From positions 193,640 through 234,867 of the forward strand of contig WELB01000004.1 of the NCBI GenBank assembly GCA_009602725.1: 41,228 nucleotides of DNA, in the 5' to 3' direction. Both the position numbers and the translations under genes were made by a program. Source of the DNA: Spirogloea muscicola. Lineage: Eukaryota; Streptophyta; Zygnematophyceae; Spirogloeales; Spirogloeaceae. Below the pieces are notes generated by a model. It saw only the letters and a program-made list of their open reading frames with translations. It had not been told where the DNA came from and ran no database searches. Position 1 is the stretch's first letter. Every line of letters starts with the position of its first letter. Shown in pieces: positions 2,721 to 33,300 of the stretch.

Positions 2721-5477
2721 TCAAGTTCTAATCTGGCGTGCTGCTTCGATGATAGTCTGGATGCTGATCCGTGGGTAATGTTGTAGGAGCTTGAGGTTGG
2801 TAGTGAAGTCTCCTGCCAGCAGCCTTGAGCGTATGCACAGCAACATCGCGCAGCAAACGTGCAGAAGTGTGTCCTGTCCAGCATACAAAGTAACTTTGAG
2901 TAGGGCCGAGACCCGCTGTATTCCTGCAACAGTACTTCCAGGCAGCTGCGACAACTCATTTCTGTTACTGATTGTTCGTGTTGCTCTTATGTGCTACCCA
3001 CCATAGGCCCATTTCCGCTGCTCAAAAGCGAGTCCCACAAGCGAAGGCTGTCTTCAAAGCTGAACTCCTGAGTGAGGAGCAGGGTGATCCACCGAAATGC
3101 ATAGAAGTGCGGGTCGACCTGGAGACAAAGTAGTACGTTGAGAGAATAAAATTCCACTAATGGAATGCAACAAGCTTTGGGCCAACTTTGTAAGAACGTG
3201 CTCAGCACAAATATCTGTCAAATCGTAACTCTTAAAGCCAATTCTGACTATGTGAGGATGGTGCCTGGAACGTCCCTCAAAGTTTGTCAGAGAGCTGTAC
3301 CTTGTCTTCTTCAAGGTGTTGCCAGAGCTCCTCATCATTGTTCTTCAGGAGCAAGGACAGGCGTGAGAGAGTGGCTTTGATACCAACAACACTGTTGTCC
3401 AACTTTTGGACAAAGTGGTCCCGAAATTCCGCCAACAAAGCTACGAAGCAGAAGAAAGAATCTGCTTCTGCATGTTCCTGAAGACCAACGCCATCATCAC
3501 CCGAGGAAATGCTGCAGAAGTAAGACAAGCACCACTTTGACCTCGCTATAAGTGAACCTTTACTATCCGTCATTACAATACAGGACCTAGAACCTGCCCT
3601 GTGCAAGAGCTAGCTGTAGGTCAAGGAAATGGGGACTTGAGGGCGGGGAATACACGTAACGTAGTCATAGAAATGATGTACATAGGACATGTTTAAGTTT
3701 GTTGCTGTTGAAGTGTTAAGGATAGCTGTTATCAATCAAGTCACTTCCGGGCCAGTACTCACAGAGATGGAGGGGTCTGGATCTGTCCTGAAGACATATA
3801 GCAGTGGTGCAAACACCTCATTCATGCCTTGGACATACTGGATACCAGGGTTTAGCTTGGCATAGATGAAGAGCGAACGACGCAGAGATGCCTTGTTGGC
3901 CTCAGCATTACTGTCGCCGCTATTGAAGAAGGGCATGTCAGGATGTGTCCGCAGTACATCCCGCTCAATCTGCTCTACAAGCTCATTGTCCTGCAAGCAG
4001 GCACGACACGGCTAGTATCAGGCTTGGCACACCTTAGCTGAACCTCTTACCAGCCCTGCAAAACCCTACACTATGGATTCACTAGTCTCAAGTGCTGCTT
4101 GACTGACTCGCAAAGGTAGGCACATCTTGCCGGCTAAATGTTAGGCTTGCATAAGCATGCATACGATCAGCTTGTGCAGGCTGCCAGCAAAGCGTGTAAC
4201 TAGACAATTTGGCCGCTGTTAAGAACTTGGCTTCCAGGCCATGCCTGAAAGAACTTGTGCCAGACGGATGTTGTCCCCGTGCTGAGCGGGTGATCATCAT
4301 TGGAGACATCTAGCCTCCGGAGCGCTCCTTCCACTTCCTCCGTTCCACTGTCCCTCTCTGCTCCACCCTCCTCAGCTCTCCTTCGAGAGATTTCTGACTG
4401 TGAGCAGCTCATACATGTTGGTCTCAGGAACAATTACTACCTCCCAAGATTGGGATTGACAGGACCACGGAGCACAGCAACAAGACCTCAACAACCTGCA
4501 CATATAACAACCTGAAAAAGCTGCTGGTAGATACTGCCACCACTTATGTGCAATAGCTGACCTCCTCCTCTGCTACAAGGAAGGGCTTTGCTGCAGCTTA
4601 GAAAAGCGAGTTCGGCTTCTCACAGGGTTGACCATCAGCTCTGCCTGAAACTGGGCATACTCGGCCCGCTTCTTCCTTAGCTCAGCAACCCAGGCCTCCC
4701 TTTGCACAGGCAGGTAGCGCAGCAGCAACTACTGCCGCAGAAGCTGCCACGTCAGAGGCAACCAGGGCAAGAGAAGCCCGGCAGGGCCGAGCCTGCACCT
4801 ACCCAAGCTATTGCTTGAGCCATTGCTTGTGACTTTGGTACAAGACGTGCACATCCAGTCAATGTAATCAAGCCTCAAAGAAATTGTTGCAACATACCGG
4901 AACCATGTCAAGCTCCCTTATCATCACGGAAGTTGTGTACGTACAAGCAAAGACAGGTAGCTGTGCAGTGTGAGGTTGTTCGAGACACTTGCCTTCCACA
5001 CAGTGGATCGGAGGCTGCCATCCTCCGGGATGCCATCCCATGCAAGGGCCTGCAACGCAGCCAGTTGAATTCTGTCCCTGGACAGCTGCATTGCAGGCAT
5101 GCTTGCGTCAGCTGCAGGTAGAACATCCTCACAAAAGCAGGCAGCATTGGACCTAGTTCCAGTGGACCCTCATTCATCTGCTGCCACATCCTGCAGGTAA
5201 GACACGTTGCAATATGATCGATAGGAACCGGATATAACGTACAGCATACTTGAAGGAGGTCTTTGTCCTCGATACTCCATATGACCGCCTCTTCAAGCTA
5301 GCAGTGAAGCTATCATGCAAACATCATGGCGGCGAATCTCGCAGCCCTTACCTCGGCTCGGAACGAGGCGATGCGGTCCTCTGAGCGATGCAGCGACGGT
5401 GGCGGCGCCGGCGGCGGCGCCGCCACCGCCTCCTCTTCCTCTGAGAAGGCCACCTCAGCGAGCAGCTCGGCAGCCAT
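2721..5477 (-). CDS. TBC domain RabGAP, TBC1D13-type (complete, 9 exons, 399 aa)
   Basis: The TBC domain stimulates GTP hydrolysis by a Rab GTPase and so controls vesicle traffic; the human TBC1D13 family member acts on Rab35. Exons in transcript order: 5477-5352, 5297-5250, 5085-4993, 4728-4624, 4397-4245, 3990-3763, 3477-3301, 3118-3002, 2873-2721. Every exon length is a multiple of three and the product is 399 aa, close to the 400 aa of the human protein. Both catalytic motifs are present: IxxDxxR (IERDVLR, residues 183-189, arginine finger) and YxQ (YVQ, 227-229, glutamine finger). Family blocks include WDGIPEDGSLRSTVWK, EHAEADSFFCF, HFYAFRWITLLLTQEF and LLHVCCAMLLCIRS. The start Met opens an acidic Pro/Ala-rich leader before HRSEDRIASF, which matches the human N-terminus in kind. 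Two introns start with GC (donors at 4992 and 4244). All eight introns are phase 0. The exact substrate Rab is unknown. Confidence 0.93.
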
Positions 5478-5675
5478 GCGTGCTTGCGGGGGCGCAAGCC
5501 GCCGCTCTGAAATGCAGGGGGAGGCAATGCCGGGGGCCCTGATTTAACGGTATAGCACTGTAGGTACTCGCAAACCCCTTCACCGGCAGATTCGCTCTTG
5601 GCGGCGGCAGCCGCGACCGGCAGCCGCGGGCGCACGCCCCTGGGTGGCTTGTCTCGTCTTGCAAGAGAGAGAAGG

Positions 5676-5818
5676 CGCGCGGGGCGCATGAATTGAAAGG
5701 GAGGCCAATTCAAGCCAATACATTGTTCAGGCAGAGTCGAGTGCAGACTAAACAATGCTACATAATACGGAGACCTAATCTAAGGTACCTAAGATGACAT
5801 TAGTACCCACGGGTGAGC
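5676..5818 (-). repeat. Short dispersed repeat carrying the common coding-end motif
   Basis: The block GCGCATGAATTGAAAGGG and the following AGGCCAATTC recur almost unchanged at about 11840-11870. At the right end the minus strand reads TGCTCACCCGTGGGTAC, the motif that ends the repeat family seen throughout the window. It is probably a decayed member of the same family. It lies just upstream of the RabGAP start. Confidence 0.55.
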
Positions 5819-5929
5819 ACAAAAGCAAGCGAACGCTCCACGAAGAAACTTTCTAAACAGGAGGCGACGGCTGTCAAAGCCACTCACAGCCTTTGGAAGA
5901 GCTTCTTGCTGCCTCTGGCTCTGGCCAGG

Positions 5930-6047
5930 CATGAGTGTGTGTTAAGAGATGGAGGGCCTGTGTGGCCAAGTACAAAGGCAAGCACATTGACAAATGTACG
6001 TCACCTGCTGCTAATCTGACCCGCTCAGTAACCACGAGTCAGCACAT
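5930..6047 (-). repeat. Repeat copy with 'W' tail (minus orientation)
   Basis: Read on the minus strand it contains ACTCGTGGTTACTGAGCGGG, then GTGCTTGCCTTTGTACTTGG. The same order of blocks occurs at 15470-15592, and the second block occurs in the 7035-7093 insertion. It is a third, diverged copy of what I call the W tail. Confidence 0.6.
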
Positions 6048-6061
6048 AGAGGTCGCTAAGT

Positions 6062-6323
6062 GATGCCCGAATACTGGACGGCAATCGACGAGCTCTTGAG
6101 CTACCAGCTAAGGCTCGACCAGCTTTCTAATGCAACGCATGAGCCTGAGCTCGCTGCAGACAAGCTGACACTCAACGTCGCAGGAATGACAAGTAGGCTG
6201 CCGGCATGCCCATCTGAGCTGGAAGCCTATCCTCACGTCGAGCATATCCCAAACTTGCAACATTCTCCAGTAAGGTATGGAAGCGAGGACCCATGCAGCC
6301 GAAAATGTCATTGCCGCCGGTAG
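6062..6323 (+). CDS. Small open frame, unrecognised (possible remnant)
   Basis: ATG at 6062 opens an uninterrupted frame of about 86 codons beginning MPEYWTAIDELLSYQLRL and ending in RRYGS-like basic sequence near the stop at 6321-6323. The start is helical and coding-like and the later part is not. It sits between repeat copies, with repeat on both sides. It could be an exon, an old gene piece, part of a mobile element or chance. I recognise no family. Confidence 0.2.
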
Positions 6324-6419: not shown

Positions 6420-6570
6420 CTTAGTTGCTCATTGGCTGATGCGGTCCACGCGCGCGCTGGTCGTGCTATGGCTGCTGCTTCCAGGTCTTGGCAGAGTGCC
6501 GCTTTTCCTGCTTCGAGTTACTCTGATCTGCTGTTGCTCACACGTGGATACTGAGCATCCATCTGCATCT
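6420..6570 (+). repeat. 5'-truncated copy of the SDLxLLTRGY repeat family
   Basis: The plus frame gives AAASRSWQSAAFPASS, then YSDLLLLTRGY and a stop at ACTGA. The same residues and the same stop position recur at 13530-13625 and 15740-15845. The upstream part seen in longer copies (MRLSxSLQRS) is missing, so this copy is truncated at its 5' side. It runs on into the H tail (6571 onward). Confidence 0.65.
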
Positions 6571-6708
6571 CCCTCTGCACCGTCTCGTGCTTTGTAGTGT
6601 AGTCCTTGTACGGCACTTCTTTCTTTGTCTTTGGACACTCCCTCTGCACCGTCTCGTGCTTTGTAGTGTAGTCCTTGTTCGGCACTTCTATCTTTGTCTT
6701 TGGACATT
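6571..6708 (+). repeat. Two tandem 69-bp units in the H tail
   Basis: CCCTCTGCACCGTCTCGTGC begins at 6571 and again at 6640. The units differ at only a few bases (GTACGGC versus GTTCGGC, TTTCTTTG versus TATCTTTG). The unit is the 5' half of the H tail, so one tail has duplicated part of itself. The 69-bp period keeps frame, which gives a repetitive open frame on the other strand that I treat as non-coding. Confidence 0.8.
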
Positions 6709-6721
6709 GTCCATTCTTTTT

Positions 6722-6740
6722 GGGCTGGCTTTGCCAGCCC
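6722..6740 (+). repeat. Perfect hairpin of the H tail
   Basis: GGGCTGGC, loop TTT, GCCAGCCC: an 8-bp perfect stem. It is preceded by GGACATTGTCC, a second small inverted repeat (GGACA-T-TGTCC). The identical hairpin occurs at 15268-15286. Near-identical versions occur at 13236-13255 (minus), 12846-12862, 16136-16155 and other places in the repeat islands. Confidence 0.85.
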
Positions 6741-6772
6741 CTCTTCTCTATGGGCGAGCTCTTCTTCTTGTG

Positions 6773-7133
6773 CTTGTTTTTCTTAGAGAGAAGGCGCTTA
6801 GTGCTTCCCCTGGCCCCTTCTCGTACTTAGTAATTCTCTTTTGGGCTGGCTTTTCCCAGCCCCTATCCTCAGTGAGCGAGCCCTTCTCTCTTTCTTGACT
6901 CTATCGTGTCAATGGGCCGCCACTGAGACGGATGTCCAGGAATGAAAGAAAGGGCTCGCCCATTGCGGATAAAAATCAAAGGGATAGGGGCTGGAAAAGC
7001 CAGCCCATGACGAAATGGACAAAGTACGAGAAGGAAAATTTCGTGTATTTGAAACAAACGAAGGCCAAAGGCCAAGTGCAAAGGCAAGCACAAGAGAAGG
7101 GGGCCAGGGGAAGCGCTAAGAAAAACAGGAATG
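6773..7133. repeat. Fold-back (inverted) repeat
   Basis: The left arm at about 6773-6897 pairs with the right arm at about 6940-7133 around a loop of roughly 40 bases. Matching blocks include CTTAGTGCTTCCCCTGGCCC (left) and its reverse complement near 7098-7120, and the GGGCTGGCTTTTCCCAGCCC hairpin on both arms. The right arm is longer because it carries the 7035-7093 insertion. GGGCCGCCACTGAGACGG at about 6914 is repeated with one change at about 7149. Confidence 0.75.
7035..7093 (-). mobile_element. 59-bp W-tail insertion with 7-bp target duplication
   Basis: GAGAAGG at 7028-7034 is repeated at 7094-7100. The other arm of the same fold-back (about 6803-6830) shows the uninterrupted sequence with a single copy. 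Read on the minus strand the insert starts TTGTGCTTGCC and ends TTTCAAATACACGAAATTTT. That is the same 3' end as the 123-bp insertion at 15470-15592, but with a much shorter 5' side. This pattern suits a 5'-truncated retroinsertion. Confidence 0.7.
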
Positions 7134-7580
7134 GGCTTCTCGGTCGATGGGCCGCCACTGCGACGGGGCGCCTCCCCTGTCCGATTCTCTCATATCAGCA
7201 GCCGCTTTCCTTTCGGTGTGGCCTGCGCCGCCCGACTATCAGTTCCCGGCACCCAACAGGCGCGTGGCTCCGCGCCAAGGCCAGGCGGGGCCTAGGGGGC
7301 CAGCTGCGCCCAGGCTGGCAGCCCCTGGCCCCCTTTCCGCATTCTCCTCTTTCCTTTGAACTCGGCCACTCAGGCCCTCCATCACTCGATACACACTCCC
7401 GTTCCTTTCGCCCGGGCGGCCCGTGTGCCCGGCCGACATCTGACGCCCGTCCCGGTACGCCCGTGGCCCTCCGATCCACTGCGCCGCCGTCGTTGGCAGC
7501 CTCCGCCGCGGCGGCGACCGCGGCGGCGACGAGGCGGAGTCGCGGCGGCGGGAGGCGGCCGCGGCGGCGGCGCTGCCTCC
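7134..7580 (+). promoter_or_regulatory. GC-rich 5' flank of the hydrolase gene
   Basis: Base composition shifts sharply to GC, ending in GGCGGCGG runs just before the ATG at 7581. The upstream open frame continues into the coding frame without an ATG and is read as 5' UTR. Fold-back repeat sequence ends only about 450 bp from the start codon. No TATA-like box stood out. Confidence 0.4.
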
Positions 7581-8998
7581 ATGTCCGTCCTGGACCAGCA
7601 CAACCTGCGGGTGATCGGCTCCGGGGAGAAGCTCGTCGTGCTCTCGCACGGCTTCGGCAGCGACTCCTCCTCCTGGCAGCACATCGTCCCGCACCTCGTC
7701 GATGACTACCGCCTCATCCTATTCGACCTCATGGGGGCTGGCTCCACAAATCCCGAGAACTTCTCGTTCAGGCGCTACGCCACGCTGCACGCCTATGCCG
7801 ACGACCTGCTCGCCATCCTCGACGAGCTAGACGTGGAGAGCTGCATCTATGTTGGTCACTCTGTGTCCGGCATGATCGGCTGTCTGGCCTCTATTGAGCG
7901 TCCAGAGGTCTTCGAGAAGATCATTATGATATCTACATCCCCAAGGTGGACTCTCCATATATAAACTTGTCAAACATCAAGTTGCTCAGAGAGGTCTAGC
8001 ATGAAGCTTTTGCAATATCTCATACAAGTCCACCTTACACAAAGGTAATGTGCTGACAAAGCTGTGGTCACAGCAATGAGGTACCTTAGAGCGCCCGCTG
8101 TGCTTCTCTAGGTACTTTTTCTTCGACCAGATTTCAAGCAGCAACTTCATAGGCGCAAGAAACTCTTCAATGTTCTCGCTTGATCCCTCACCAATTGCGT
8201 GGACGAGTCATCAGCGTTCTTAAGTTGTCTGCCTGCGCTGATGTGTTACCTTCGTCTGTGCAACAGATACCTGAATGACAAGGACTACTTTGGGGGCTTT
8301 GAGCAGGAGGACTTGAATGGGCTCTTCGAGGCTATGCAGCAGAATTTTAAGGCTTGGGTATCAGGATTTGCACCACTGGCAGTTGGAGCCGATATTGAGT
8401 CCGATGCCGTGCAAGAGTTCAGTCGCACGTTCTTCAGCATCAGACCGGACATTGCATTAAGTGTGGCTAAGACCATCTTCCAGGTGAACATGACGTGGCC
8501 TGCTGTCATCAGCAGGCATCATGGACAGCCTTGCAAAATGAATCGCTCGTCGTTTTTGACCCTTGGCTTTCTGATCACCCCACCGCATATTCATCTGGCA
8601 AGAGCAAAGCACTGCAGCAGTCTGATCAGATGTCTAGTTATCCACCACTGGACGTTGTCATTCTAGACTTATCAACGTCAAAGTTGGAGTCCGGTCAGGG
8701 ACATTCGTGATGCAGAGTGCTGCATGTTTGCGTACTTGTCTAAAGTATGCGCAACTGTGACCCTCTTTTGCTACAGAGCGATTTGAGGAGATTACTACCT
8801 CTGGTCACGGTGCCCTGCCACATATTGCAGAGCAACAATGACATGGCTGTGCCAGTTGTTGTCGCCGAGTACTTGCACATGACACTCGGGGGAAGAAGCG
8901 TGGTGGAGATACTCCAGACTCAGGGCCACCTTCCACAGCTTAGCTCGCCTGAAGTCGTGGTTCCGACTTTGAGGCGGCATCTTCTTGGATGCATATGA
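7581..8998 (+). CDS. Alpha/beta hydrolase of the KAI2/D14/RsbQ family (complete, 3 exons, 267 aa)
   Basis: In land plants KAI2 and D14 perceive karrikins or strigolactones with a slow hydrolase; in bacteria RsbQ is a stress-signalling hydrolase. Which role applies here is unknown. Exons: 7581-7945, 8267-8483, 8777-8998; introns are phase 2 and phase 0, both GT-AG. The product is 267 aa, the usual family size. The catalytic triad is present: Ser94 in GHSVSG, Asp216 in SNNDMAV, His245 in QGHLPQLS. Other family blocks are [39 protein letters not shown] and [11 protein letters not shown]. The ATG is the first in frame after a GC-rich leader and [15 protein letters not shown] is a typical N-terminus. 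The neighbour upstream is divergent and unrelated. No truncation or frameshift was seen. Confidence 0.95.
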
Positions 8999-11150
8999 AG
9001 CAAGGAAAGGGAATGAAGAGGTTGCTTGTCATTTCTGCCGATTGAACAGTCTACTCTACATGGACCGGAGGTTTGCCTGCTCTGGTGTGGCTAGTAGCGT
9101 GTAGCAAGCCATGAGTTGCTCATGGTTCATGAGACCTCCAACTTGGGCTCCTCTTTGGGAGGTGACGATGGGGACTGGATCTGCTTATCAAGGACGGCAA
9201 GAGATACTCTTTCAAGGACGTGTGGCATTGCTACACACAATCTAGAGTTATAGCTGCTTCAGAATGAGCCCTTCTGAGCAAGACCAAGGAGGCCGGAGAA
9301 CAATTATTTATGCTCGACACTGTGGTGTTTAGCACAGATTGTTAGTCACTATGTGGCATTGCCATACACAAATTAGATTTGTAGCTGCTGCCGAGTGAGC
9401 CCCTCTGAGGAAGACCAAGGAGGCCGAAGGGAGACTATCTATGCTTGCCACTCTGGTGTTCAGCACAGAGTGTTAGACATTGAGGTGTCTAACAATCTGC
9501 GCTAGACAGCCTGCGCAGGTCAATCTGCTCTTAAAGGCATGGCCATTTAGGTTCAGTAGTCTGCAGGTATGAGTGTGCAGAGCAGGCATTCTTCAATCTT
9601 GCGCCCCAACCCATCAATGGTTGCCATGCCGTGCATATAGCACTATAATCTAATGTAGTCTGGACTGATAGCAATCTTTCTGCTTTGTAGCTTGGCTATC
9701 TTCTGTGCAGCTTTCAAAATCTTGCATCTCGCTCGAACTTTTCGTCTTTGCAGACTTGATCATCCCCTTTAAGCTCGGGAGGAGGCATTAGATAGATGTT
9801 GTTGCGGCAGCTGGGATTGTGCATAGTGACACTGTGTCTTGGCTCCATATTGTGTGCTTTATGCCTTCGCCTTTCCAAATGTTGAGGTGTGACTTGGAAG
9901 AAGTAGTGAGCTTGTTGTCATTGTGACTGCTTCTCCACAGTAAGCCTGCATACTATACCTTTTCTCAGAATATGACAATCCTGGAGGAATGCCTCGTTTC
10001 ATGCTGGTTCAAGCAACTTGGTTTTGCCAATAGTTGGTGTGATTTAAGGGGTGCAATGAACTTCTTTGGTTCGGCTGCAGCAGGCATTTAATACACAAGG
10101 TGCATAGAGTCAAATCGACATTGTTTTCCAGAATTTGTTACATTGGACTGGGAGAGCTACGTATTGAGCGCCAGCCCTAGGCGTGAGGGCTAGTGGGCAG
10201 CCCCCCTTGGAGGTCTTGCAGCAGCTTGGAGGCCCCTCCTGCTGTGACAGCGCCAGCTGCAAAATGGAGCAAAATGGACTACATGAGGTGCCAGGACACA
10301 GTGGTGGCGGGTGTGCGGTGGAGGTGGCGCGGGATTCTGGAATGCAAAGATCATGGTGTGCATGTGTTGAAAGGGGGGCCAAGCCGAGCTACCACTCTGT
10401 TTATGCGAACGAAATGCAGAGGATTGAAAGGGATGGGGCTACACCAAAACCCTTGGGGAAAAAGGTCCTAGAATACAGGCCAAAAGCAAGGCTGGAGGAG
10501 AGCTTCATTATACACCAATGAGCATACACGAGTCGGACAGACTAATTTGGGGAGCTGGAGCACCGCCATGTAAGCGGGTGGCCTGACTTGGGGAATACAA
10601 GCACGCAAATGAGTGAAAATGGAGTAACCCTCCCCCAGTGGGCCAAGGTGGCCAAGGAGGCTGGTAAAGTCGTGGTGGCTGCTGCACGGCACCTTCGGGA
10701 GCTGGGGGAAATTAAGTGGTCCTACTGGCGGATAGGCAAAGATGTCTTCCATGAAGAAGCAGCAGGTCTTGCAAAGGTGCCGAGGACTACGGAAAGCCAG
10801 CCCGCAGTTTTTTTGAGCGCTTCTTCCAAAGGTGCGATACCTTGAAAGCAGATGGACTCTTCCGGTAGAGGGCGATGAAGTTTGATTTGCCAGCCCATAA
10901 TGAAAACAGATTGAAGGGACCAGAAAGCAATAACGCCCTCAGCGACTCCAGTGGCCACTGGTCTGAAAGGCCAGCCAGTATAGGAAAACCAAGCAGCTGG
11001 TCCAGCGTAGGCGAGGGTTGCAAAAGGGGCCAGCCCACAAATGTATGACAAGGTCCAGAAGAAAGTGAAAGCAGATAGCACACAGGGAAAAATGGAAACT
11101 TTAAGTATGGCCGCTCAGTAACCCCTGCTTACACAGCCGCAAATTGGAAA
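8999..11150. other. Long gene-poor stretch, then reversed repeat sequence
   Basis: Up to about 10100 the sequence is AT-richer, with no convincing open frame apart from the tandem duplication at 9221-9480. From about 10150 it becomes purine-rich on the plus strand. It contains GCCAGCCC near 10890 and 11032 and GCTCAGTAACC near 11112, which are reverse complements of the hairpin and coding-end motifs of the repeat family. Open frames here (for example 10183-10521) look like shadows of repeats. Confidence 0.5.
9221..9480 (+). repeat. 131-bp tandem duplication downstream of the hydrolase gene
   Basis: TGTGGCATTGCTACACACAA at 9221 recurs as TGTGGCATTGCCATACACAA at 9352. The copies stay alignable through AAGACCAAGGAGGCCG and GTGTTNAGCACAGANTGTTAG to about 9480. 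There are roughly 15-20 differences over 130 bp. It probably lies in the 3' UTR or just past it. No open frame or mobile-element end was seen. Confidence 0.8.
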
Positions 11151-11157
11151 TAAGCAG

Positions 11158-11560
11158 CCAGCTCACTTGGAAGGAAGAATGATACTGAAGAATGAGCTTG
11201 ATTCATTCCTTTCACCGTGCTTGGTGGCTCGAGCTCCTGCATCGGCTCGCGCGCAATGCAATCTCCCGACTTTCTCATGATGAACAGGCCAATCTCGTCG
11301 CGGCAGGCTCAATTGCCCAGGGTTGATCATGCGCCTGTCAGTATCCCTGAAGCGTTTAATGACACACGCGCTTCGTCTGCGTGCTGGTCGTGCTTTGGCT
11401 GCTGCCTTTGGCTATAGACAGGGTACCGGCTACCCGGAGGCTATTTTAACCGACCTGCAGCAATCAACAGGTTACATTGAGCATCCAGTGGCCACGTAGT
11501 CCGCTGTGTGCTTCAGCGCTTTTCTGGCCCCTTCCAAATCTGTTCACTCTTTTTCCTGGG
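11158..11560 (+). repeat. Long repeat, copy A
   Basis: AGCTCACTNGAAGGAAGNATGA, then GCTTGGTGGCTCGAGCTCCT and GCGCTTCGTCTGCGTGCTGG, are shared in order with copy B (14512-14930), at roughly 85-90% by eye. The reading frame resembles LARNAISRLSHDEQANLVAA, then a frame change and MRLSVSLKRL. It is a decayed coding-like remnant with frameshifts. Confidence 0.75.
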
Positions 11561-11639
11561 CTGGCGGCCGATCACAGCCATCGCCCTCTACAGCAAGAGT
11601 CTCTCTTTCACAGCTAGTGCCCTCCTAGTTAGCTCAGGT

Positions 11640-12110
11640 TTACAGCATGCGTCTTTCCACTTCCCTTCGGCGGTCATGGCCCACGCCTTGCACCTGCGTG
11701 CTGGCCGTCCTCTCGCTGCCGCCTCTGGCTTTCGTCAGGGGAATTGCTTTCGGGCAGCTAGTCTTGCGGATCTGTGGTTCCTCACTCGTGGTTATTGTGT
11801 GGTTCATCTTACCCCAGTTCTGAGATAAGGCGTGCGGTGCGCATGAAATTGAAAGGGAGGCCAATTCTAGCCTTACAAATGTCTTTTCAAGTGTATAATG
11901 AGCTGGCTAAGGGGGACACTAAATATCCCCGAGTGAGCACATGCATATCTGACAAGCTATACTGAGGAGCCAAACCACCCCCACGGAAGCCATTAGCCTG
12001 GGCTAATGCACGACCAGCACGCTGGTGGATCGCGAGTGCCTGAGAGCGCTGCAGACTCAACGATAACCGCATTCTGAAGCATGCAACTATGGCTTGCGGG
12101 ACGCTAGAAT
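11640..12110. repeat. Two opposed copies of the repeat family
   Basis: On plus, 11640-11815 reads MAHALHLRAGRPLAAASG, FRQGNCFRAASLADLWFL and TRGY, but the stop is replaced by TGT. On minus, 12085-11890 reads MRLSLSLQRSQALAIHQRAG, then SLSDMHVLTRGYLV. The two copies face each other across the GGCCAATTCTAGCC block at about 11860, which also occurs at 5676-5720. Protein-level similarity is clearer than DNA similarity for the minus copy. Confidence 0.65.
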
Positions 12111-12419
12111 GGCCTAAGCTACCCGCCCGACTATGTCGGCGGGCATCGACATGCAGTGCCAGGCGATGGAGGAGGGCAGACCGCTTCGTTCCGTAGCCGC
12201 CGTAGATGTCCATGGCGCATGGGAAGAAGTGCTCGCTCCGGGGGTGGTCACTAGTGCCTCTCCTCTTCCTCTCCGCATGATGTGTCGCCCAACCTGGCAC
12301 AGTCGGTGTGGGTGCCCCTGGGTTGGAATGCGTCGATGAGAACGACGTCGAGGAGAAGACGAGGCCCATGATAGCGCTTTTGGCCCCTTTGTAATCTGGC
12401 CCCTTCGAACCTTGTCAAG

Positions 12420-13110
12420 TCTTTTCGGGCTGGCTTATCACAGTCCTTGCCCCCATTAGGAGAGCCACTTCTCTTCTCCTACTTTTTCTAGAGCACCAAA
12501 TTCACACCCGTCGCCAGTCGCGCCGGCAGATGGAGCAGGCTTCTTCTGTTCGGGCTCGGGCCATATTGGAAAAGCTGTCATTCCATCGCCCTCTACTGGA
12601 AGAGTTTTCCTTCTCATTCTTGCGAAGTCGGCGTTACTAAGCTCCCATCCGCTGTAGTCTCATGCATGGCTGTGTGGTTTAGGCGGCTTTCGGCCCTTGT
12701 CCTCTCTTTCTGGGCTGGCTATCTCGTGGTTACCACGTGATTCATCCGACCGGCCAAGCTCTGAGCCAACACTTTCGGCCCCTGCAGACTTTGTCGACTG
12801 CTTTCGGGTCATTCGGCTCCTCTTGACCTTGTCCATTCCTTTTGGGCTGGCTTCTCCCAGCCACCAGTCAATTCGGCCGCGCTTTTCTCTATTTTCGGGC
12901 TGGCTGTCATATCCCTTGCCCCCTTTGGGAGAGCCACATTCTTATCTACAGCCCCTCTGCCTTAAATTGGAAAAGCTGTTGTTGTCATGCTGCTGACGTC
13001 TTGGGGACTAGTATCCTGCTTTATGCGCCAGAGACTTGTCTCCTGCTTTATGCGCCATCCGGCCCGTTCAGACCTTGTCCTTTCCATTGCGATGGGAATA
13101 ACAGGGAGAG
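12420..13110 (+). repeat. Repeat segment shared with 14985-15720
   Basis: Blocks in the same order as the downstream segment include CACACCCGTCGCCAGT, GCTCCCATCCGCTGTAGTCT, TCTCGTGGTTACCACGTGAT and TGACGTCTTGGGGACTAGTA. This copy has the uninterrupted site CCCCCTTTGGGAGAGCC near 12920, which the downstream copy has broken by an insertion. Several GGGCTGGC hairpins are present. Confidence 0.75.
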
Positions 13111-13117
13111 GATGAAT

Positions 13118-13490
13118 CACTCAGTAATTACGAGTGAGGAGCCTCAGATCCGACAGACTAGCTGCCGGGAAGCTATCACCCTGACGAAAACCAGAGGCCG
13201 CAGCAAGAAGAAGGCTCGCCCATAAAGAAAGAGGGGCTGGCAAAGCCAGCTCAAAAAGAATGGACAATGTCCAAAGCCGAAGAATGAGAAGCCGAGGAAG
13301 CAGCAAGAGCACGGCCAGCACGCAGATGCTGAGCGTGGGCCATGGACCGCTGGAGGGACACTGACAATCGCATCCGATATACCTGAGCCCACGAACCAGC
13401 TGCATTAAAGTCAGCCGGTTCGCCGCGCCGGCGGGATACAGCCGCGCGAGCCTGGCCAGTAGGTCGAGCCACTGGGACCCGCGACACTTT
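13118..13490 (-). repeat. Longest readable copy of the repeat family (minus), interrupted
   Basis: Read on minus from 13490: WLDLLARLARL-like text, YRMRLSVSLQRSMAHAQHLR, AGRALAA; then the 91-bp insertion (13299-13209); then AASGFRQGDSFPAASLSDLR and LLTRNY with TGA. The coding frame resumes on the far side of the insertion. There is no long intact frame, so it is a relic. Confidence 0.7.
13209..13299 (-). mobile_element. 91-bp H-tail insertion with 9-bp target duplication
   Basis: GCAGCAAGA at 13200-13208 is repeated at 13300-13308. The related copy at 11700-11745 runs straight through this site. The insert (minus strand) contains TTTGGACATTGTCCATTC and GAGCTGGCTTTGCCAGCCC and ends near ATGGGCGAGCC. 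Longer H tails elsewhere (6600-6770, 15200-15310) extend further 5', so this copy is 5'-truncated. Confidence 0.75.
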
Positions 13491-13499
13491 CTTCTCTTT

Positions 13500-13725
13500 C
13501 CATTGGGCTAGGCTCTCATAGCGAGCCCTTCGTCGCTCTGGCCGCGGTCTCCGGGTCTCGGCGGAGTGCCTCCTTCCCTGCCTCGAGCTACTCGGACCTG
13601 ATGTTGCTCACTCGCGGGTACTGAGCTTCCCTAGTATGTTGTCGTGATTGGTAGAGTAGAGGAGTCCTTCCTCGGCCTCTCATTCTTCGGCTTTGGACAT
13701 TGTCCATTTTTCATAGCCACCCCCG
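13500..13725 (+). repeat. 5'-truncated family copy followed by H tail
   Basis: The plus frame reads SGSRRSASFPASSYSDLMLL, then TRGY and TGA at about 13621. The H tail follows (GTCGTGATTGGT ... GGCTTTGGACATTGTCC) and breaks off near 13720, where the sequence changes toward the LINE fragment. It shows that the coding end and the H tail belong to one unit. Confidence 0.7.
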
Positions 13726-13736
13726 CTGTCATTTTA

Positions 13737-14511
13737 GGGTGCTGCGCATGTGGAGCAAGTTGTGGAGTCCACCCTTGAGAACCATCTCCAGACCCTCCCG
13801 GCCCTCCCCTCCTTACAGAATGCGCAGCTTGCGGTGGCCATCCTCACCCGGTGTGTGGCCCAGCGTCCCACTTACCTGTTGCGGACTGTACCCCCCACCA
13901 CGGCACTAAACGCCATCTACTCTACCGTGGACTCCAGACTCCAACAGGCTCTTCACGGCCTGGTGGACCATCCCAATTTGTCCGCCACGCCGGCTGCCAT
14001 CCTCCAGTGTACCCTTCCTACCAGCATAGGCGGCCTTGGGTGCCGTCCACTGGCTCGCCTGTCCCAAGCAGCTCACCTGGGTTGCTGGGCCCAAGTGGCC
14101 TCCACCATCTCCAGTCGCTCCATCCTGAGGGGCCAGGCTGTTTTAGCACCCGCTATAGCGGGTGTTGCAACAGGGACCAGGCCCTTCCAGCTTTCCCCAA
14201 CCGCAGCACTGCATGACCTCTCGAGCTCCCTACCAACACTTGCCGAGGGTCATGCAGATTTTGCGGCATGGGCACGCTGTTCCGATAGGAAAGCGCAGGC
14301 TCACTACACACACGCTGCGGACGTGCAGGCCGCCTCCGACTTGAAGGGACTGCTCAAGGACGATAGACGTGGCCTTACCCAGCTCCTTTCAATCGGCTCC
14401 CCGGGCGCGTCGGAGTGGCTAAACGCTCTGCCGATCTACGAGTCCCTTCGGCTTTCTGACAACCTTTTCCGCACGGCGCTCCACCACCACCTTGGCCTCC
14501 CCCCCNGCTAG
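13737..14511 (+). pseudogene. Non-LTR retrotransposon (LINE) reverse-transcriptase C-terminal fragment
   Basis: An open frame of about 258 codons runs from just after an in-frame TAG at 13735-13737 to the N at 14506. It begins GAAHVEQVVESTLENHLQTL. Blocks such as NAQLAVAILTRCVAQRPTYL, LRTVPPTTALNAIY, LPTSIGGLGCRPLARLSQAA and DNLFRTALHHHLGLP are typical of the region after the RT palm in LINE ORF2 proteins (GGLG-type block, then the run-up to a zinc knuckle). The polymerase motifs (YADD) are upstream and absent. The expected C-terminal cysteine-histidine knuckle is cut off at the ambiguous base. It has no start and no end, so it is a fragment, and there is no evidence that it is active. The frame is still open, so it is either young or short by chance. 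Confidence 0.7.
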
Positions 14512-14930
14512 CTCACTAGAAGGAAGGATGAAATCGACAAATGAGCTTGTTTCGTTCCTTTCACTGTGCTTGGTGGCTCGAGCTCCTGCATCGGCTCGCG
14601 CGAAACGCAGTCTCCCCACGTTCTCAAGATGGGCAGGCCGATCTCATCGTGGCACGCTCAGGTGTATCATGCGCCTGTCAATATCCCTGCAGCGGTCAAT
14701 GGCACACGCGCTTCATCTGCGTGCTGGTCGTGCTTTGGCTGCAGCCTCTGGCTATAGACAGGGGACCCGCTACCTGGAGTGAAGACTACTTTCGCCAACC
14801 TGCGGCTGCTAAACAGGGGGCATTGAGCATTCAGTAGACACTTAGGTCGCCGTGTGCTTCAGCACTTTTCTGGCCACTTCGAACTTCGTTCATTCATTTT
14901 CCTGGGCTGGCGGCCGATCACAGCCATCGT
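14512..14930 (+). repeat. Long repeat, copy B
   Basis: It matches copy A (11158-11560) from AGCTCACTAGAAGGAAGGAT onward. The frame MRLSISLQRSMAHALHLRAG, then RALAAASGYRQGTRY, is readable, then breaks. Copy B starts within a few bases of the N that ends the LINE fragment. Confidence 0.75.
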
Positions 14931-14984
14931 CCTCTACTGGAAGAATCAATTGTTCACAGTTAGTGCCCTCCTAATGAAGAACTT

Positions 14985-15720
14985 CTGGAGCACCATATTC
15001 ACACCCGTCGCCAGTTGCACCTGCAGATGAAGCGGGCTTCTTTTGTTCAGGCTCGGGCCATTTTGGAAAAGCTTTCACATCATCGCCCTCTGATTATTGG
15101 GGTGTTCCTTCTCTTTCTTGCCAACTCGGGGTTACTAAGCTCCCATCCGCTGTAGTCTCTTGCATAGCTGTGTGGTTTAAGGCGCCTTTAGTAGTCGTGG
15201 TTGTCGTGTTTGGTGTAGTCCTTCTCGGCACCTCTTTCTTTGGCTTTGGACATTATCCATTCTTTTTGGGCTGGCTTTGCCAGCCCTCTTCTCTCTGGGC
15301 GCGCACTTCTCTCGTTTGGCCCTTCGGACCTTGTCCTCTCTTTCTGGGCTGGCTATCTCGTGGTTACTACGTGATTCATCCCACCGGCCAAGCTCTGAGC
15401 CAGCACTTTTGGTTCCTTCAGACTTTGTCGACTATTTCGGGCTGACTGTTATATCCCTTGCCCCCTTTGACCCGTGGTTACTGAGCGGGTCAATCTGCTG
15501 TAGATTACTTTGGTCTTCAGATGTGCTTGCCTTTGTACTTGGCCATTTGGCCAAGTCCAAAGCTTCGTTTGTTTCAAATACACGGAAAATCTCCTTTGGG
15601 AGAGCCACGTTCTTATCTACAGCCCCTGCCTTACATTGGAGAAGCTGCTGTTGTCTTCATGCTGCTGACGTCTTGGAGATTGGTATCCTGCTTTTTGCAC
15701 CATCCGGCCCTTTCAGACCT
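14985..15720 (+). repeat. Repeat segment shared with 12485-13075, plus an H tail
   Basis: It holds the same ordered blocks as the upstream segment. It also contains a full H tail at about 15195-15310 with the perfect GGGCTGGC-TTT-GCCAGCCC hairpin, and the 123-bp insertion at 15470-15592. Confidence 0.75.
15470..15592 (+). mobile_element. 123-bp W-tail insertion with 6-bp target duplication
   Basis: CCTTTG at 15464-15469 is repeated at 15593-15598. The sister segment near 12915 has one copy and no insert. The insert starts ACCCGTGGTTACTGAGCGGG (the coding-end motif), carries the hairpin ACTTGGCCA-TT-TGGCCAAGT, and ends TTTCAAATACACGGAAAATC. It has no terminal inverted repeats. The 3' end is shared with the 59-bp insertion at 7035-7093. 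Confidence 0.8.
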
Positions 15721-15734
15721 TCTCCATTCCTTTG

Positions 15735-16000
15735 GGCTAGCCTTTGGGCCGTGCTATCGTTGCTGCTTCCGGGTCTCGTCTGCCTGCATCTTTTCCAGCT
15801 TCGAGCTACTCTGACCTGATGTTGCTCACCCGCGAGTATTAAGCTTCCTGTGGTTCCGTCGTGTCTAGTTGTGTAGATGCTAAGCTGTGTATTTCCCTTC
15901 TTTCCGGCACCTGTTGTGGCTCTTTGGTGTTTGTCCATACTTTCTTGGCTGGCTTCTGCCAGCTCCTCTTTTCTGTGGGCGAGCTCCTCTCAGAAGAAAA
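15735..16000 (+). repeat. 5'-truncated family copy followed by H tail
   Basis: The plus frame reads VAASGSRLPASFPASSYSDL, then MLLTREY and TAA at 15839-15841. A diverged H tail follows (GTCGTGTCTAGTTGTGTAG ... GGCTGGCTTCTGCCAGC ... GTGGGCGAGCTCC). The order is the same as at 6420-6770 and 13500-13725. Confidence 0.65.
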
Positions 16001-22539: not shown

Positions 22540-22995
22540 AAAAGGAACAGCGCTTCCACATTGACTGGTGGCTGTGTGACTGGTGACTGGAGGCCAGCCC
22601 AAAAGTAGTGTACAAGGTCTGAAAGGCCGAAAGGCGCAGAAGGCATGAAATTACTCATGACTCCTGCGAGTGGGCGCTCAACTACCTCATGTCAGCAAAT
22701 ACAGATAAAACTAAATAGAGGGCGAAGATGGGTCGCCCTGTCGGATCCCGAAGGCAGCAGCCAAGGCGCGGCCTGCCCAGACGTGGACGACTAGTGCCAA
22801 GGACCGGCTGCAGGGAGAGCAAGTCGGAAGCTGTACACTTGAGCAAGCGACCCGACGGCACCGGGCCGCTCGCTCTGCTGCCCTTGGCGGCGGGACACAG
22901 CCCGCCGTGCAAGCAGCTGGAGTAGGTCGAGCCAGCGAGTCCCAAACGTCGGCTTTAGAAGCCCCCCAGGTGCACATAGACGGGGATCCATGACT
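22540..22995 (-). repeat. Minus-strand copy of the repeat family with an RT-like motif
   Basis: Read on minus from about 22950: TGGCTCGACCTACTCCAGCT, then RALAAAFGIRQGDPSSPSI in one frame and FALYLVLSVFAD in another. The start matches the 13490 copy. GIRQGDP followed by FALYL is reminiscent of the LINE RT motif GxRQGDPLSPLLFALYL. Inverted H-tail hairpin pieces (GGCCAGC) lie at 22530-22600. The copy is frameshifted and not functional. Confidence 0.6.
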
Positions 22996-27350: not shown

Positions 27351-30300
27351 TCAAGAGGGGTGGCCTCTGGCAGCACCCTGATGCTGCCCCTGCAAATCGG
27401 CGCTCCTGGAAGGTACAGGCCTTTGGAGGGGTTTCAGCTGGGCCATTATCTCCGTGAAGGACGGGCGCTCGCTTGCTTCTCTGCAAGCACGCAGGATGGC
27501 ATGCGGCCAATAAGAATGGCAATCAAGCACTACACTCGTGTTGTTTTGGCGGCAAAGGAAAATTGTCTCTCCTCTCACCAGCCTCATGCTGGGGACAGAT
27601 GACAAGATGGTCATAGAGGTAACGGTGCCAGTACATTCTGAAGCAGGCGTTGATGATGTCTGCAATGCCTGGCTCCACTGTATCTGGTAGAGGAAGAGTC
27701 CGCTGCTGGAAGCCAACCGCACCCACGACCTGCATGGGGTTCAGCTGGCCCCATGGTTTCTCCAACGTGGCTAGCTCCCAAAGAATCACCCCAAAGCTGA
27801 AGATGTCCGACCTGGTAGACATGCAGGGAAGGAAGTGCGAAATGACACCACTGACAAATCAAGCGTCAAAGTATAGATACATATACAATGTAAAAGATCT
27901 CGCACATAAATGTACAAACCTGACCTAGTGTCCTCAGCAAATTAGGCCATGCACAAGCAGCTCAACCCTTTCATGATCCCTGTTGTTGTGATCAAACGAG
28001 CTATTCTTTCATAAATGCGAAGAGTGCTGAATTATAAAGAAAAGCAAAAGCTACATCATGCGGTACGCACTTCTCATTGGAGGGCTCGTTGCGGAGCACT
28101 TCTGGAGCCATCCACTCTGGCTGCAACCACAGGCAAGCAGGTCAATCAGTAAGCCGAAAGAGGCAATGAAATAGAAAACTTGTGCACCTCATATGCGGTC
28201 TACTTGACCTAAGCGTTCTCCTTGACCTATTTCCTCTGCTCAATGAAGTGTACAGCAAAACCTGGTCAACAATGAGAGTGTCGAGTGTCTGCTGCTAATA
28301 CAGGCTACTAACTTAATAGTAACTCACTGTGCCAGCAGTTGACTTTGAAGTAAGGAAAGTGTGATTCTTTATCTTGGAAAGCCCAAAGTCACACACCTGC
28401 ACAAGGAAGCATAGTCAAGCAAAAGCTCCACAACCAAACAATTGACAACAATGTAAACAAGGAGACTTACCACTGTGCACGAGTAAGGGAAGAGAATCAG
28501 GTAAGGGAAGCATTGCCCTGCCTACGAAAGAGACAGCTGCAATTTTGATGTTTGGCTCATGAAAACTTGCACAAATGCATGTAACTGAGCACTTTCTTAC
28601 CTTGACAACCCAATTCTTGTCGACAAGAAGGTTGGGCGACTTCAAATCACGGTGGACAATGGGAGGATTGCTGCTGTGGAGGTAGTTCATACCTTTGGCC
28701 TGGGCAAACCGGGATCAAAGCAGGGCCGAATTAACGTAAGCAATGAGAAGAGCACCACCTTGCTCTACAGTGTGAAGCTAAGGAAGGCTAGACTCAACAT
28801 GGCAGTGATTGTAGCAAAGAACACATCGCTACTTGCCTACTTCACAGTGCCAAGCTCCGCAGACAAGCTGACAAGCTGCAAACCCTCACCACATCAAGTG
28901 CCATACGAAGCCTCCGAGCAATGTCGATAGTAGTATTGGCATGTTGTCGATGGAGCAGTCTGTACAGGCTCCCCCTGCAGCGAGCTAGGGTTGGAGCAAA
29001 TTAGTCGCTCAGTAATCCAGTGTCCCATGAAGACCACAAGACATGACCCTGGTCTTCTCAATCAGGAGCAGGCTGTGGAAAGCTCGCTTGGTGCTGTTGG
29101 CCTTTGTGGGCTCAAAGTGTACAATGAAATTTGACTCAAGCTTTTGGCATGGGTGCTTGTGCACAGTAGCTTGGTAATAAGTTTTTCTAATTGCTAGGCA
29201 GAACTTCTTGCACTGACCTTGGAAGGAATTCTGTCACAATGGATAGGTGCGGAGGGCGCGTGACTGCACCCATGAAGAGAACCACATTTGGGTGCCGCAA
29301 ACGCTTCATTATGGCGACCTGAAATAGATAGGGTATAGGTCAGTCCATGATTGAGCTTCCACTTGCGCTGCTGATCCAGGGTGATTGACATGGAGGAGCT
29401 TGCGTTCTCATAGACAGCGTGACGCAGTCTGAATAAAGGTAGGGCCCAACTGTAGTACCTCGCCACGGAATTCCTCCAATGCTGCACCCTGCACATCCTG
29501 CTCCAGGAACTTCTTTACAGCCACTTCCTGTACAAGGAGCATGAAGTGCAAGCACGTGTGAGTGAGAATTGGATGAGCCCCTGGGCTGATGACTGAGGGA
29601 GGGAGGGAGGGAGGGAGGCTGCAANGGAGGGAGGCGGGAGAGAGGAAGGGAGGGAGGGAGGGAGGAGAGAGGGAGGGGTGTCACAAGTACTAGCCAATTC
29701 CAGCATGGAAGCATGATGGCTGCCGAGCAGCTAGCAGTATACAAAGTACACACAGTCACCCACCGATCCATGCCAATCACCGCGGTACACTTCGCCATAT
29801 GAGCCTGCTCAAAGGATGAGACAAACATCAAATAGCATACTTCCAACATGTTGCACCTGCCTTCAAATTGAGCAATTGTAAGAATGAATGTATATAAATA
29901 GCAAGACTACTTGCTGATGGTGCAACACCTGCAAACTAGTCAGAGGAGGCACCAGGACCTTTCAAGCACAGTCGATTTGGTCAGAAGCTAAGCTGGCCAA
30001 TATCCCATCTGCCAATGCCGCACATGGGCTACTGCAGTGCTTGTTGTGCTTACCTAGTCCTATCCTATCGCCAATGATGATGTCCTCCCAAGGAATCTCC
30101 CACTCCTCCGTCTCTTTCAGCATCCTCTGAAAGTTCCGCTCTGACGAAGCATGATGCATGTCACTCTCCAGCTGCTCGCCAGTGCTCACATCATCTATTC
30201 TCATAGTCTCCTCCGTGTCGCGGATGTGCATGGCTTCCAGCTCCGCTCCTCTGACCTCCGCAGCTGATCCCAGGCGGCTGAGTGGCAGCCTGGCGCTGCC

Positions 30301-33300
30301 CTCTGACGGGGCTAGGGACCTCAGTCTGAGTGCATTCTGATCGTTGCCAAATGAAAGGTTGTCATCTGAGACTCTCCTGTCAGAGGCGTTGCTCAACTCC
30401 GAAGCCTGGCGGGAGAGCTCCCCCGCCACGTGTACAGCAGTTGACATGGCAGCTGCAGTGATCGGAACCTGAAGGGAGGTGATGTCTGCGTTGTGGGCCG
30501 CAGCTACCATGGAGGAGGCCACCATGGCAGCTGTGGCAGCGACAGCCGCGGCGGACACGGGCAGGTTCGACAGGCTGGAGGTGGCAATGCTGGTGAGGCT
30601 TGACAAGGGGACAGAGGAGCCGTTGGAAGCCACGCTCTGTGGTGTCATCTCCAAGGGGTGCGCGCTTCCGAGTCCAGCGACTGGATCGAGCTTCCTGTCT
30701 CGCAAGCGCGGTGAGACGGGTATCTCTGATGCTGCAGGCCTGCCAGGCCCCTCCGAAGCAATCTCCTCTGATTCCCTGCGGTGCCCATCACTCGTCCCCG
30801 CCACATTCTCGACGCGCCAGATTGCAGCTAGGGGGTCTTTCGTACTGCCAGGCCCTTGGGAAGCAGTGGCTTCAGGTTCCTGTCAAGTTTGAGCATCCGC
30901 CACTTGAGCGTTGAGGTCAACATATTTCATGCAAGAGGTGGATGCTGCAAGCACAGGCAACAGCTGGGAAGCCGGCAGGGCTGATAGAGCGTTGCGGAAG
31001 TGTATCAGCTAAGCCTTGTTAGTATTGTCAGAACAACCAAGTAGCCAAGCTGTGCTGCGCTCAAATGCCATGCCATGGGAAAACGCAATGGCAAGGCCTA
31101 TCCACTCTGAGAGACAATGTAACTTGACTGAAGGAGACACAAAGCGCGCAGTTGAATTGCAAAGCTCACCTTCCTTTCTTGCAAATGGATGGATTCTTCG
31201 TGAGGAGCAGCCATTTGCTTCTGTGACTGCCCATTTGGGTTATGCCTCCTCTGGAATGGGGTGGGGCTCAGCGGGCACGCCTTCTCGCTGCCCCTGTAGG
31301 CCCGTCCCAGGTCCAGTGAGCCCCCAGCATGGTCATCCTCTGGCCCAGATGTACCTGGCACCTCCTCCGATTCCATGTGCGTCCTCTGTCCTAAAATCCC
31401 AGGGATCTCCACAGCCGCAGCAACGGCTCCAGCCTCTTGTGGCTGCTCATGACCGCCTGCTTTGCTTGGAGCTTGGACTGGGATATCGTTTGGCACTTGA
31501 TGGGGCCTACCCAAGGCCGCATCAACGAGGGAGGGTCCAGCAGGTTGCCCAGCAACTGTTAACATGAATTCCCTGCTACTGCTGCGTACTCGATGGTTGT
31601 TGTTGTTGTCATCCTTCGTATCAGCGAGCAGGGGTGGTGCAGGAGGTACATGGAGGTTGGTCAACTCCACGGGTATGAGAGCGCCTGGTGCTGCCATGAC
31701 GTCTATGAAGTACTCCTTGTTGTCCTCGTCCAAGATGAGGTTAACAGCCCCCTCATCAGCGCCCGTGTAAACTCGCCCGCGCAATAGGCGACACGGGAGC
31801 CCTACTCTGTCAGCCAGCACCTGTCCAGGAGAAGGCCAGTTTTCATCACAGGTTGATGGTCATGAGTCAAGACAACAGTCAGCTGCTCGGTACAAGTTCA
31901 CATTGAATTCTGTCTGATGCTGTCAATGAGCTTCATTCAAGAAAAGTTATAATGTTCCAAGCTTGCTTGAAAGATAGTCAAGCATGCAAGAGCAAATTAT
32001 CAACACTTACAAGCCTCATCAGGCTAAAGCCGCACCTTGAAAAGCAAAGCCCTATGCCTTACAAGCCCCATTCGCAGGGCACCAAGAGGAAGAATGAGTG
32101 TGCGCCGGCGGCACTTGAGCTCCCAGCTGCTTGCTTGCCACGATGGCAGCAGGTCGCCATCGGACACTGCCGCCCCTCCCAGGTGGCCTGCTACGCAGAT
32201 AGCCAACTGCTCAGCTATCCTGCCCCTTGTGGAATGGCCACCCTGGCTGCCCACCTGTGCCCTCTTGCAAGCATTTGCAGCGAGCACAGAGGCTGCGGCC
32301 TCCAGGTTCGCCAGGTCGGGATCGGCGAGCCTGTTAACAAGGACAACTTCTATGGTGATTGTGGAGCTTAGCGGTAGGGACTGCAGCTCGGCCAAAGACG
32401 GCATACGGCCGACGGCATTGCCGTATGGCGAGATGCCCCAGATGACGTAAAAGCCGTCAACTACACGCTCGTTGCAGTTGAGGACCTTGTGCACCTGAGC
32501 AGCAATGCAAGAGTGCAAGTTAGTCTCCAGCCAAGCCCAGGCAAACAGCTAGTGTGCTCTGTATACACAGTCTGTCCAACACGCTTCAACGGACGTGACA
32601 CGCAGCCATGCAGCTCATCAAAATCTAGTCTGTGGCGACTCCGCCGGAGCTACCTGATATTTATACAGCGACCCATTTGACTGTTCATCAAAGCCACATA
32701 CCCAATATCTGTTGGACGAATCCACCGCTGAATCGGCTTGCACAGCATCCTCAAAGCCCAGAGACGCCCTCTTTGCAGCTTCCACCTCCAAGGACTCCCA
32801 GGACTCCTGGCTTAGAACCATACTTGACGCACTGATGGCCATGGCAAGCTGCAAATGGTTGCAAGCATCTTTTAGTGTTGTCCTGTTCATAAGAACTTGT
32901 GCGAAATTGGATCACGCCACCATAACAATATTCGGCCCGGCAGCAACAGATTCCCAGCAGGATTATCCTCTTCTTGGAGCCTCCTCTTTGCACAACGAGA
33001 CGGAGGATGGTGAAGGCCGGTTGGCCAGAGCTGAGCCAGCATCTGAGGGAAAGACTGTCAGTGGCAACGATGCCTTACCTGCAGTTGGAAATGCTCCTCC
33101 TCCAAGTCCCTCTGCCTGTCCAAGTTGACAGCCATGGATAAATCTGCCGTAGCGTCCGAGACGGCGGGTCTGCCTGGGCCAGAACCCCGACGGCTGTCAT
33201 CAATGCCCGGTGTTTGTTGATGGAGCCCTCCGCTGCTGAAGTCACTGGCAGCCTCAGTGACTTCCTCACCGACTTCCTGGTCAGCGCGACCACCGGAGTC

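Follow-up and report, generated by a model that had tools for sequence, protein, structure and literature searches.

How can one protein-coding end be followed by sequences that bear no resemblance to each other? This question is raised by a tangle of repeats in a 41,228-bp window of the Spirogloea muscicola genome (contig WELB01000004.1, positions 193,640 to 234,867; coordinates below are those of the window). In this window, ten analysed copies of a coding end, referred to as the 'head' (…RAGRALAAASGxRQG…SDLxLLTRGY, stop), have different sequences behind them. The original prediction described one open reading frame (ORF) end with exchangeable 3' tails, which would arise by template switching or by competition between tails for a reverse transcriptase. 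The recurrent, retrotransposon-like ORF end and the differing tails are largely borne out, some tails having no detectable similarity to each other; the template switching and tail competition are unsupported. The repeats are probably decayed 3' ends of 5'-truncated elements that belong to several related families of non-LTR (long terminal repeat) retrotransposons, similar to long interspersed nuclear elements (LINEs), and were inserted into one another. This is mostly an ordinary feature of eukaryotic genomes, and a tail-swapping system is not needed.

The heads are truly coding. Fourteen regions were translated and ten heads were counted, with Y_A, Y_B, 11117(−) and 40793(−) omitted as too degraded. 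In a codon-by-codon comparison of the 45 pairs of heads, the 1,626 differences are distributed over codon positions 1, 2 and 3 as 454, 424 and 748, a third-position excess with p 2.5e-26 when the pairs are taken as independent, which they are not. The excess is also seen in single pairs, such as h5/h8 (2/5/13, p 0.004) and h1/h5 (5/2/12, p 0.007). When the differences of 12 chosen pairs were placed at random, amino-acid changes fell below expectation at p < 0.02 in nine pairs; the other three are h1/h8 (0.064), h3/h4b (0.079) and h2/h6 (0.83). The h2/h6 differences (2/3/2 by codon position, p 0.74 for position 3) follow the pattern expected for dead sequence, because they lie in a duplicated block, h2 in copy A and h6 in copy B. 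Codon selection on the heads indicates that they derive from coding parents. The h5/h8 pattern is not merely that of copies made after death, and it looks, from these two sequences, as if the source lineage were still under selection.

Three heads precede a tail termed H, confirming the predicted order at 6435–6764, 13535–13711 and 15753–15990. These are h1 (6435–6554, + strand, ending ...SYSDLLLLTRGY, stop) with its tail at 6569–6764 (+), h5 with a tail that ends short of the hairpin (13535–13711, +), and h8 with its tail (15753–15990, +). The h1 tail contains the hairpin GGGCTGGC-TTT-GCCAGCCC. It also holds a 69-bp tandem duplication (6569–6706), which at 97% identity is far less diverged than the other repeats. 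T2-type tails belong to the diverged head h2 (11359–11499, +), to h6 (within 14507–14973, +) and to h9 (22711–22797, − strand, ...AGRALAAAFGIRQGDPSSPSI, stop). The most diverged head, hW (6025–6126, −, ...SLSDLYVLTRGY, stop), is joined to a W tail (5928–6024, −, with a provisional 3' boundary). Tail type Q lies downstream of h7 (11887–12369, −, ...SDMHVLTRGYLVSPLASSLYT, stop), whose 160-aa frame is the longest of the listed intact ORFs with a head at its end. The two remaining heads are h3 (11676–11828, +, ...LADLWFLTRGYCVVHLTPVLR, stop) and h4 (...SDLRLLTRNY, stop), the latter in a 406-bp element at 13090–13495 (−).

The tails fall into classes by pairwise comparison. We aligned 18 tails of 200 nt and scored each pair against 60 shuffles; the h7 tail was cut 15 nt ahead of its true start, other starts were wrong by a few nt, and several tails extend into nested elements, inflating some z-scores (Ya, Ya2, Yb, Yb2). 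H tails are alike in h1 and h5 (z 13.4) and in h1 and h8 (11.7), with only 2.7 between h5 and h8, and the nested H at Yb reaches 14.9–20.6 against all three. A hairpin core, GGGCTGGC…CAGCC, is common to the H and T2 tails, often with GGG[A/C]GAGC next to it. Against the tails of Ya2, 40793 and h9, the h1 tail scores 5.4–7.2 and the h8 tail 3.6–11.0; against the X tails, the two score just 1.4–4.1, and the h5 tail, which lacks the hairpin, scores −0.7 to 3.9 against T2 tails. The W tails match each other (z 15.7), while W5930 and W15470 score −0.9 to 1.7 against the h1, h5 and h8 tails; scores of 3.6 for W5930 with Yb and 4.0 with the 11117(−) tail were taken as weak. The W motif CTCACTCGTGGTTACTGAGC has six matches at up to 3 mismatches, with 0.01 expected. 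The Q tail has about 50 bp in common with 5667–5716. Behind h3 (11796) and h4 (13123, −), the hairpin core is not seen, and a short GTGATTCATC-like stretch joins both tails, by eye, to Ya2 and Yb2. The possibility that all tails are one diverged sequence, which had been named as a refutation of tail exchange, thus holds for H and several others by their appearance, but not for the tails at 11796 and 13123(−), nor for W and Q.

Several joins became clear from an alignment of the two blocks, A from 11157 and B from 14507, with stretches found in only one of them taken as insertions. The two blocks are 84–94% identical across five segments between 11157 and 13030. Part X of block A (11157–11627, +) carries h2 and a T2-type tail with the hairpin core, and its counterpart in block B (14507–14973, +) is 84.4% identical. 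Part Y of block A (12486–13089, +) holds further head and tail remnants; part Y of block B (14983–15734, +) holds two insertions that block A lacks. Between parts X and Y of block A lies a composite insertion of 848 bp (11628–12475, +) with h3 (+), h7 (−) and a T2-type tail, flanked by the 6-bp repeat CTCCTA. A truncated T2-type tail of 84 bp (12809–12892, +) is flanked by TTTCGGG, and its empty site lies in block B within 15416–15465. The 406-bp element with h4 is nested in block A between copies of the 10-bp repeat CAATGGAAAG, and h4 itself is interrupted by a truncated H tail of 91 bp (13209–13299, −) with the 9-bp flanking repeat TCTTGCTGC, whose empty form is present only in other, diverged heads. 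In block B, a W tail of 123 bp (15470–15592, +) starts inside the LTRGY codons and is flanked by CCTTTG, with its empty site within 12901–12945, and an H tail (15190–15317, +) is nested as well. Outside the blocks, a truncated W tail of 59 bp (7035–7093, −) is nested in an H/T2-type tail, flanked by CCTTCTC; its empty site falls within 6801–6845 (+) of the inverted copy.

Exact flanking repeats are thus present at six of the seven junctions examined (6, 7, 9, 10, 7 and 6 bp), most with a paralogous empty site. Random junction pairs with ±3 bp of slack, the fair null because boundaries were placed by eye, gave repeats of at least 6, 7, 9 and 10 bp in 1.4%, 0.6%, 0.1% and 0.03% of 3,000 draws. 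The six insertions with exact repeats are short (59–848 bp), and their 5' ends vary between copies, as 5' truncation would leave them; one lies inside the LTRGY codons. The two W insertions whose ends were mapped have different starts and both stop 7–8 nt past ...TTTCAAATACACG, without poly(A). The two nested H insertions also start differently; they pass through GGGCGAGC or GGGCGCGC and stop 5 and about 15 nt later. No terminal repeats were seen by eye at the insertion ends, and no full-length copy is among them. A common 3' end with 5' truncation, as in LINEs, is therefore found on few copies, together with target-site duplications of variable length. Most mapped insertion sites (12809–15592) lie by eye in pyrimidine-rich tails of other elements, which may reflect target preference or detection bias. 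We also notice a 27-bp near-tandem duplication at about 13004–13057 in block A, which block B lacks. Two H/T2-type tails are inverted at 6816–7034, and the minus-strand arm holds the W insertion at its edge; a reading of W and H as one bipartite tail at 7093–6964 (−) was rejected, since the CCTTCTC repeat and the empty site bound W there.

These insertions account for several joins on which the prediction was built. LTRGY-stop followed by W is indeed seen at 6027–5928 (−) and at 15470, but the latter join is the edge of the 123-bp insertion. Different sequence does follow the heads at 11796 and 13123 (−); in the second case, however, 31 nt past the stop comes the end of the 406-bp insertion, and then host repeat. 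Copies of W and of H went in as units of their own, between flanking repeats, which agrees with the prediction. Nested insertion, part of what had been named as overturning tail exchange, explains several quoted joins, mostly with empty sites.

Under true tail exchange, one active ORF lineage would have gained 3' tails by template switching or recombination, the tails competing for one reverse transcriptase. The coding end does run into tails without detectable similarity, as the W and H comparisons show. Near-identical head DNA in front of unrelated tails, the mark of swapping, is absent among the ten heads of this window. The coding end before W is not the 'same' one: hW is only 42–47% identical in nucleotides to the three H heads and 39–50% to all nine others, diverged like an old family, while H heads are 77–78% identical among themselves and h3/h4b 82%. 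In the head tree, the three H heads group (82/84) and hW forms the longest branch. With the 5 tail labels that we gave by eye, this tree requires 4 changes, the minimum possible. Moreover, the W joins at 15470 and 7093 (−) are nested insertions. Heads with different tails are thus old, diverged families, for which family divergence suffices, and we consider tail exchange unlikely. Some exchange may nonetheless have occurred, the tree being weak, with no branch starred as strongly supported. The H and T2 heads (h2, h6, h9) are just 47–61% identical, yet their tails keep a common core, and the Q head h7 is placed, with weak support, among the H/T2 heads. Judged from these sequences, both leave room for real tail replacement. 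It is conceivable, though doubtful, that one LINE lineage exchanged its entire 3' untranslated region (UTR) for a new one on two or more occasions (H/T2, W and perhaps Q), yet retained its ORF end. If so, each replacement must have come with a change in how the reverse transcriptase recognises its tail, and copies of several tail types were inserted into one another within one genome.

Two further explanations were weighed. Short head-plus-tail units might be mobile as non-autonomous elements, similar to short interspersed nuclear elements (SINEs), with a borrowed LINE ORF end and tail. The small size of the six insertions with exact repeats would fit, as would the lack of a reverse transcriptase domain in the frames scanned. 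Their 5' ends, however, vary by copy as in truncation, with no fixed SINE start, and the heads carry codon selection. In addition, no tRNA was found in bacterial mode and no Rfam family at gathering score. Overall, such units seem improbable, about as much as tail exchange or slightly more so. That unrelated repeats became nested by chance, leaving heads and tails without a biological link, is the least plausible account, abundant as nested insertions are here. The head–H order is found in three places, LTRGY-stop continues into W in two of the three W copies, and the 2/5/13 pattern of h5/h8 also argues against chance nesting.

The reading that we favour is therefore nested LINE-like 3' ends. 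Reverse transcription of LINEs begins at the 3' end of the RNA and often stops early, leaving truncated copies and short target duplications, which fits the copies described above. In our model, the head would be the C-terminal ORF end, conserved through protein selection on active parents, and the tails would be 3' UTRs, which change much faster than ORF ends. H and T2 may form one large tail group that keeps a GC-rich hairpin core, with W and Q lacking detectable similarity to this group. Copies were presumably made by target-primed reverse transcription that started at the 3' end of each element; it would often have aborted early and left target duplications of 6–10 bp. The reverse transcriptase, the target-primed mechanism and the recognition of 3' hairpins are steps that we infer. 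Among seven folded tails, one W (z −3.6) and one H (−3.7) folded better than all 200 shuffles, and a second W reached −3.1. Apparent modular tail exchange can arise from nested LINE-like 3' ends and fast UTR divergence. If full-length H, W and Q copies exist in the genome, they would offer a natural series for co-change of reverse transcriptase and 3' tail.

Besides the common H/T2 core and the placement of h7, several results speak against this model. The H tail at 15190–15317 has no exact flanking repeat, one junction of seven. The third-position excess is not significant for h3/h4b (p 0.20) and h1/h8 (p 0.065). Four of the seven folded tails do not clearly stand out (z 0.2, −1.75, −1.95 and −1.0), and covariation in the hairpin does not exceed that of shuffles (309/500). 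Across 16 chosen sequences, 85.7% of the cells of its core can pair, compared with 27–62% when slid and 85.3% in shuffles; the core sequence is too conserved for covariation to be visible. Given these folds and the covariation result, hairpin recognition is only suggested. No reverse transcriptase or endonuclease domain was found in the scanned set of stop-to-stop frames (125 of 210), nor in 20 frames scanned separately; the window supplies only 3' ends of elements. With E values of up to 10 allowed, neither Pfam (five repeat pieces) nor NCBIfam (two) gave a family match. The AlphaFold model of the frame at 13744–14505 had a pLDDT of 37 and was unusable.

This frame belongs to an open frame of 256 aa (13738–14505, +) without database matches above chance, which ends at an N. 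It may resemble the region after the reverse transcriptase domain of LINE-type proteins, and the heads may likewise resemble C-terminal parts of such proteins. With no reverse transcriptase found in the frames scanned, LINE membership rests on anatomy and this presumed protein similarity. Contigs of IMG/VR and GTDB yielded no confirmed relative of the 13750–14505 frame or the h7 ORF. Of three DNA patterns sought in IMG/VR (one head, one H, one W), none was matched exactly, and phage records gave no match. A PDB match to a lectin (E 0.77) was taken as chance. That N, a single one at 14506, separates the 256-aa frame from the first base of block B and may be an assembly join, so contiguity is uncertain and the order there may not be real.

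The arrangement resembles that of stringent-type LINEs (zebrafish ZfL2-1 and ZfL2-2, eel UnaL2, silkworm SART1), in which the protein recognises the 3' tail of its own family; several of these tails carry a stem-loop. According to PMC4176376, stringent zebrafish LINE proteins bind their own 3' stem-loop, and exchanging the stem-loops abolishes retrotransposition of both ZfL2-1 and ZfL2-2, the loop being specifically recognised. In contrast, tail recognition here is only presumed, and the hairpin gave no covariation signal. There are also parallels with green-algal LINEs (Zepp; ZeppL/L1-1_CR; RandI/Dualen), such as nested Zepp clusters in Coccomyxa (PMC3446292) and clustered ZeppL in Chlamydomonas (PMC8226300). 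PMC3747384 reports SINE/LINE pairs with common 3' ends (RandI/Dualen with SINEX partners in Chlamydomonas), and gives Zepp and L1-1_CR as ending in poly(A). Unlike these two, the 3' ends mapped here lack poly(A). Chimeric LINE-1 insertions, in which LINE RNA is recombined with other RNAs (PMC13174262), come close to the predicted mechanism; the joins seen here can be explained without a chimera, by nested insertions and the divergence of families. Among the matches listed in the literature on algal nesting, tail exchange and UTR replacement, we saw no direct precedent, which is not proof of absence.

The window is eukaryotic. Rfam gave no family at gathering score in it and one sub-threshold, snoRNA-like match at 3504–3588; a tRNA search in bacterial mode gave none. 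The diverged repeat tangle lies between host genes, mainly at 5.6–7.1 kb and 10.8–16.2 kb, with further stretches around 22.6 and 40.6 kb. A separate pair of 128-bp direct repeats (9221–9479, 81%) had no match to heads or tails in the self-comparison. Host gene pieces recognised by Pfam comprise a RabGAP-TBC domain, an alpha/beta hydrolase (7296–7961, +), a short UDP-glucose pyrophosphorylase match, Prp19 and, at 27526–32548 (−), an EDR1/CTR1-type protein that includes kinase fragments.

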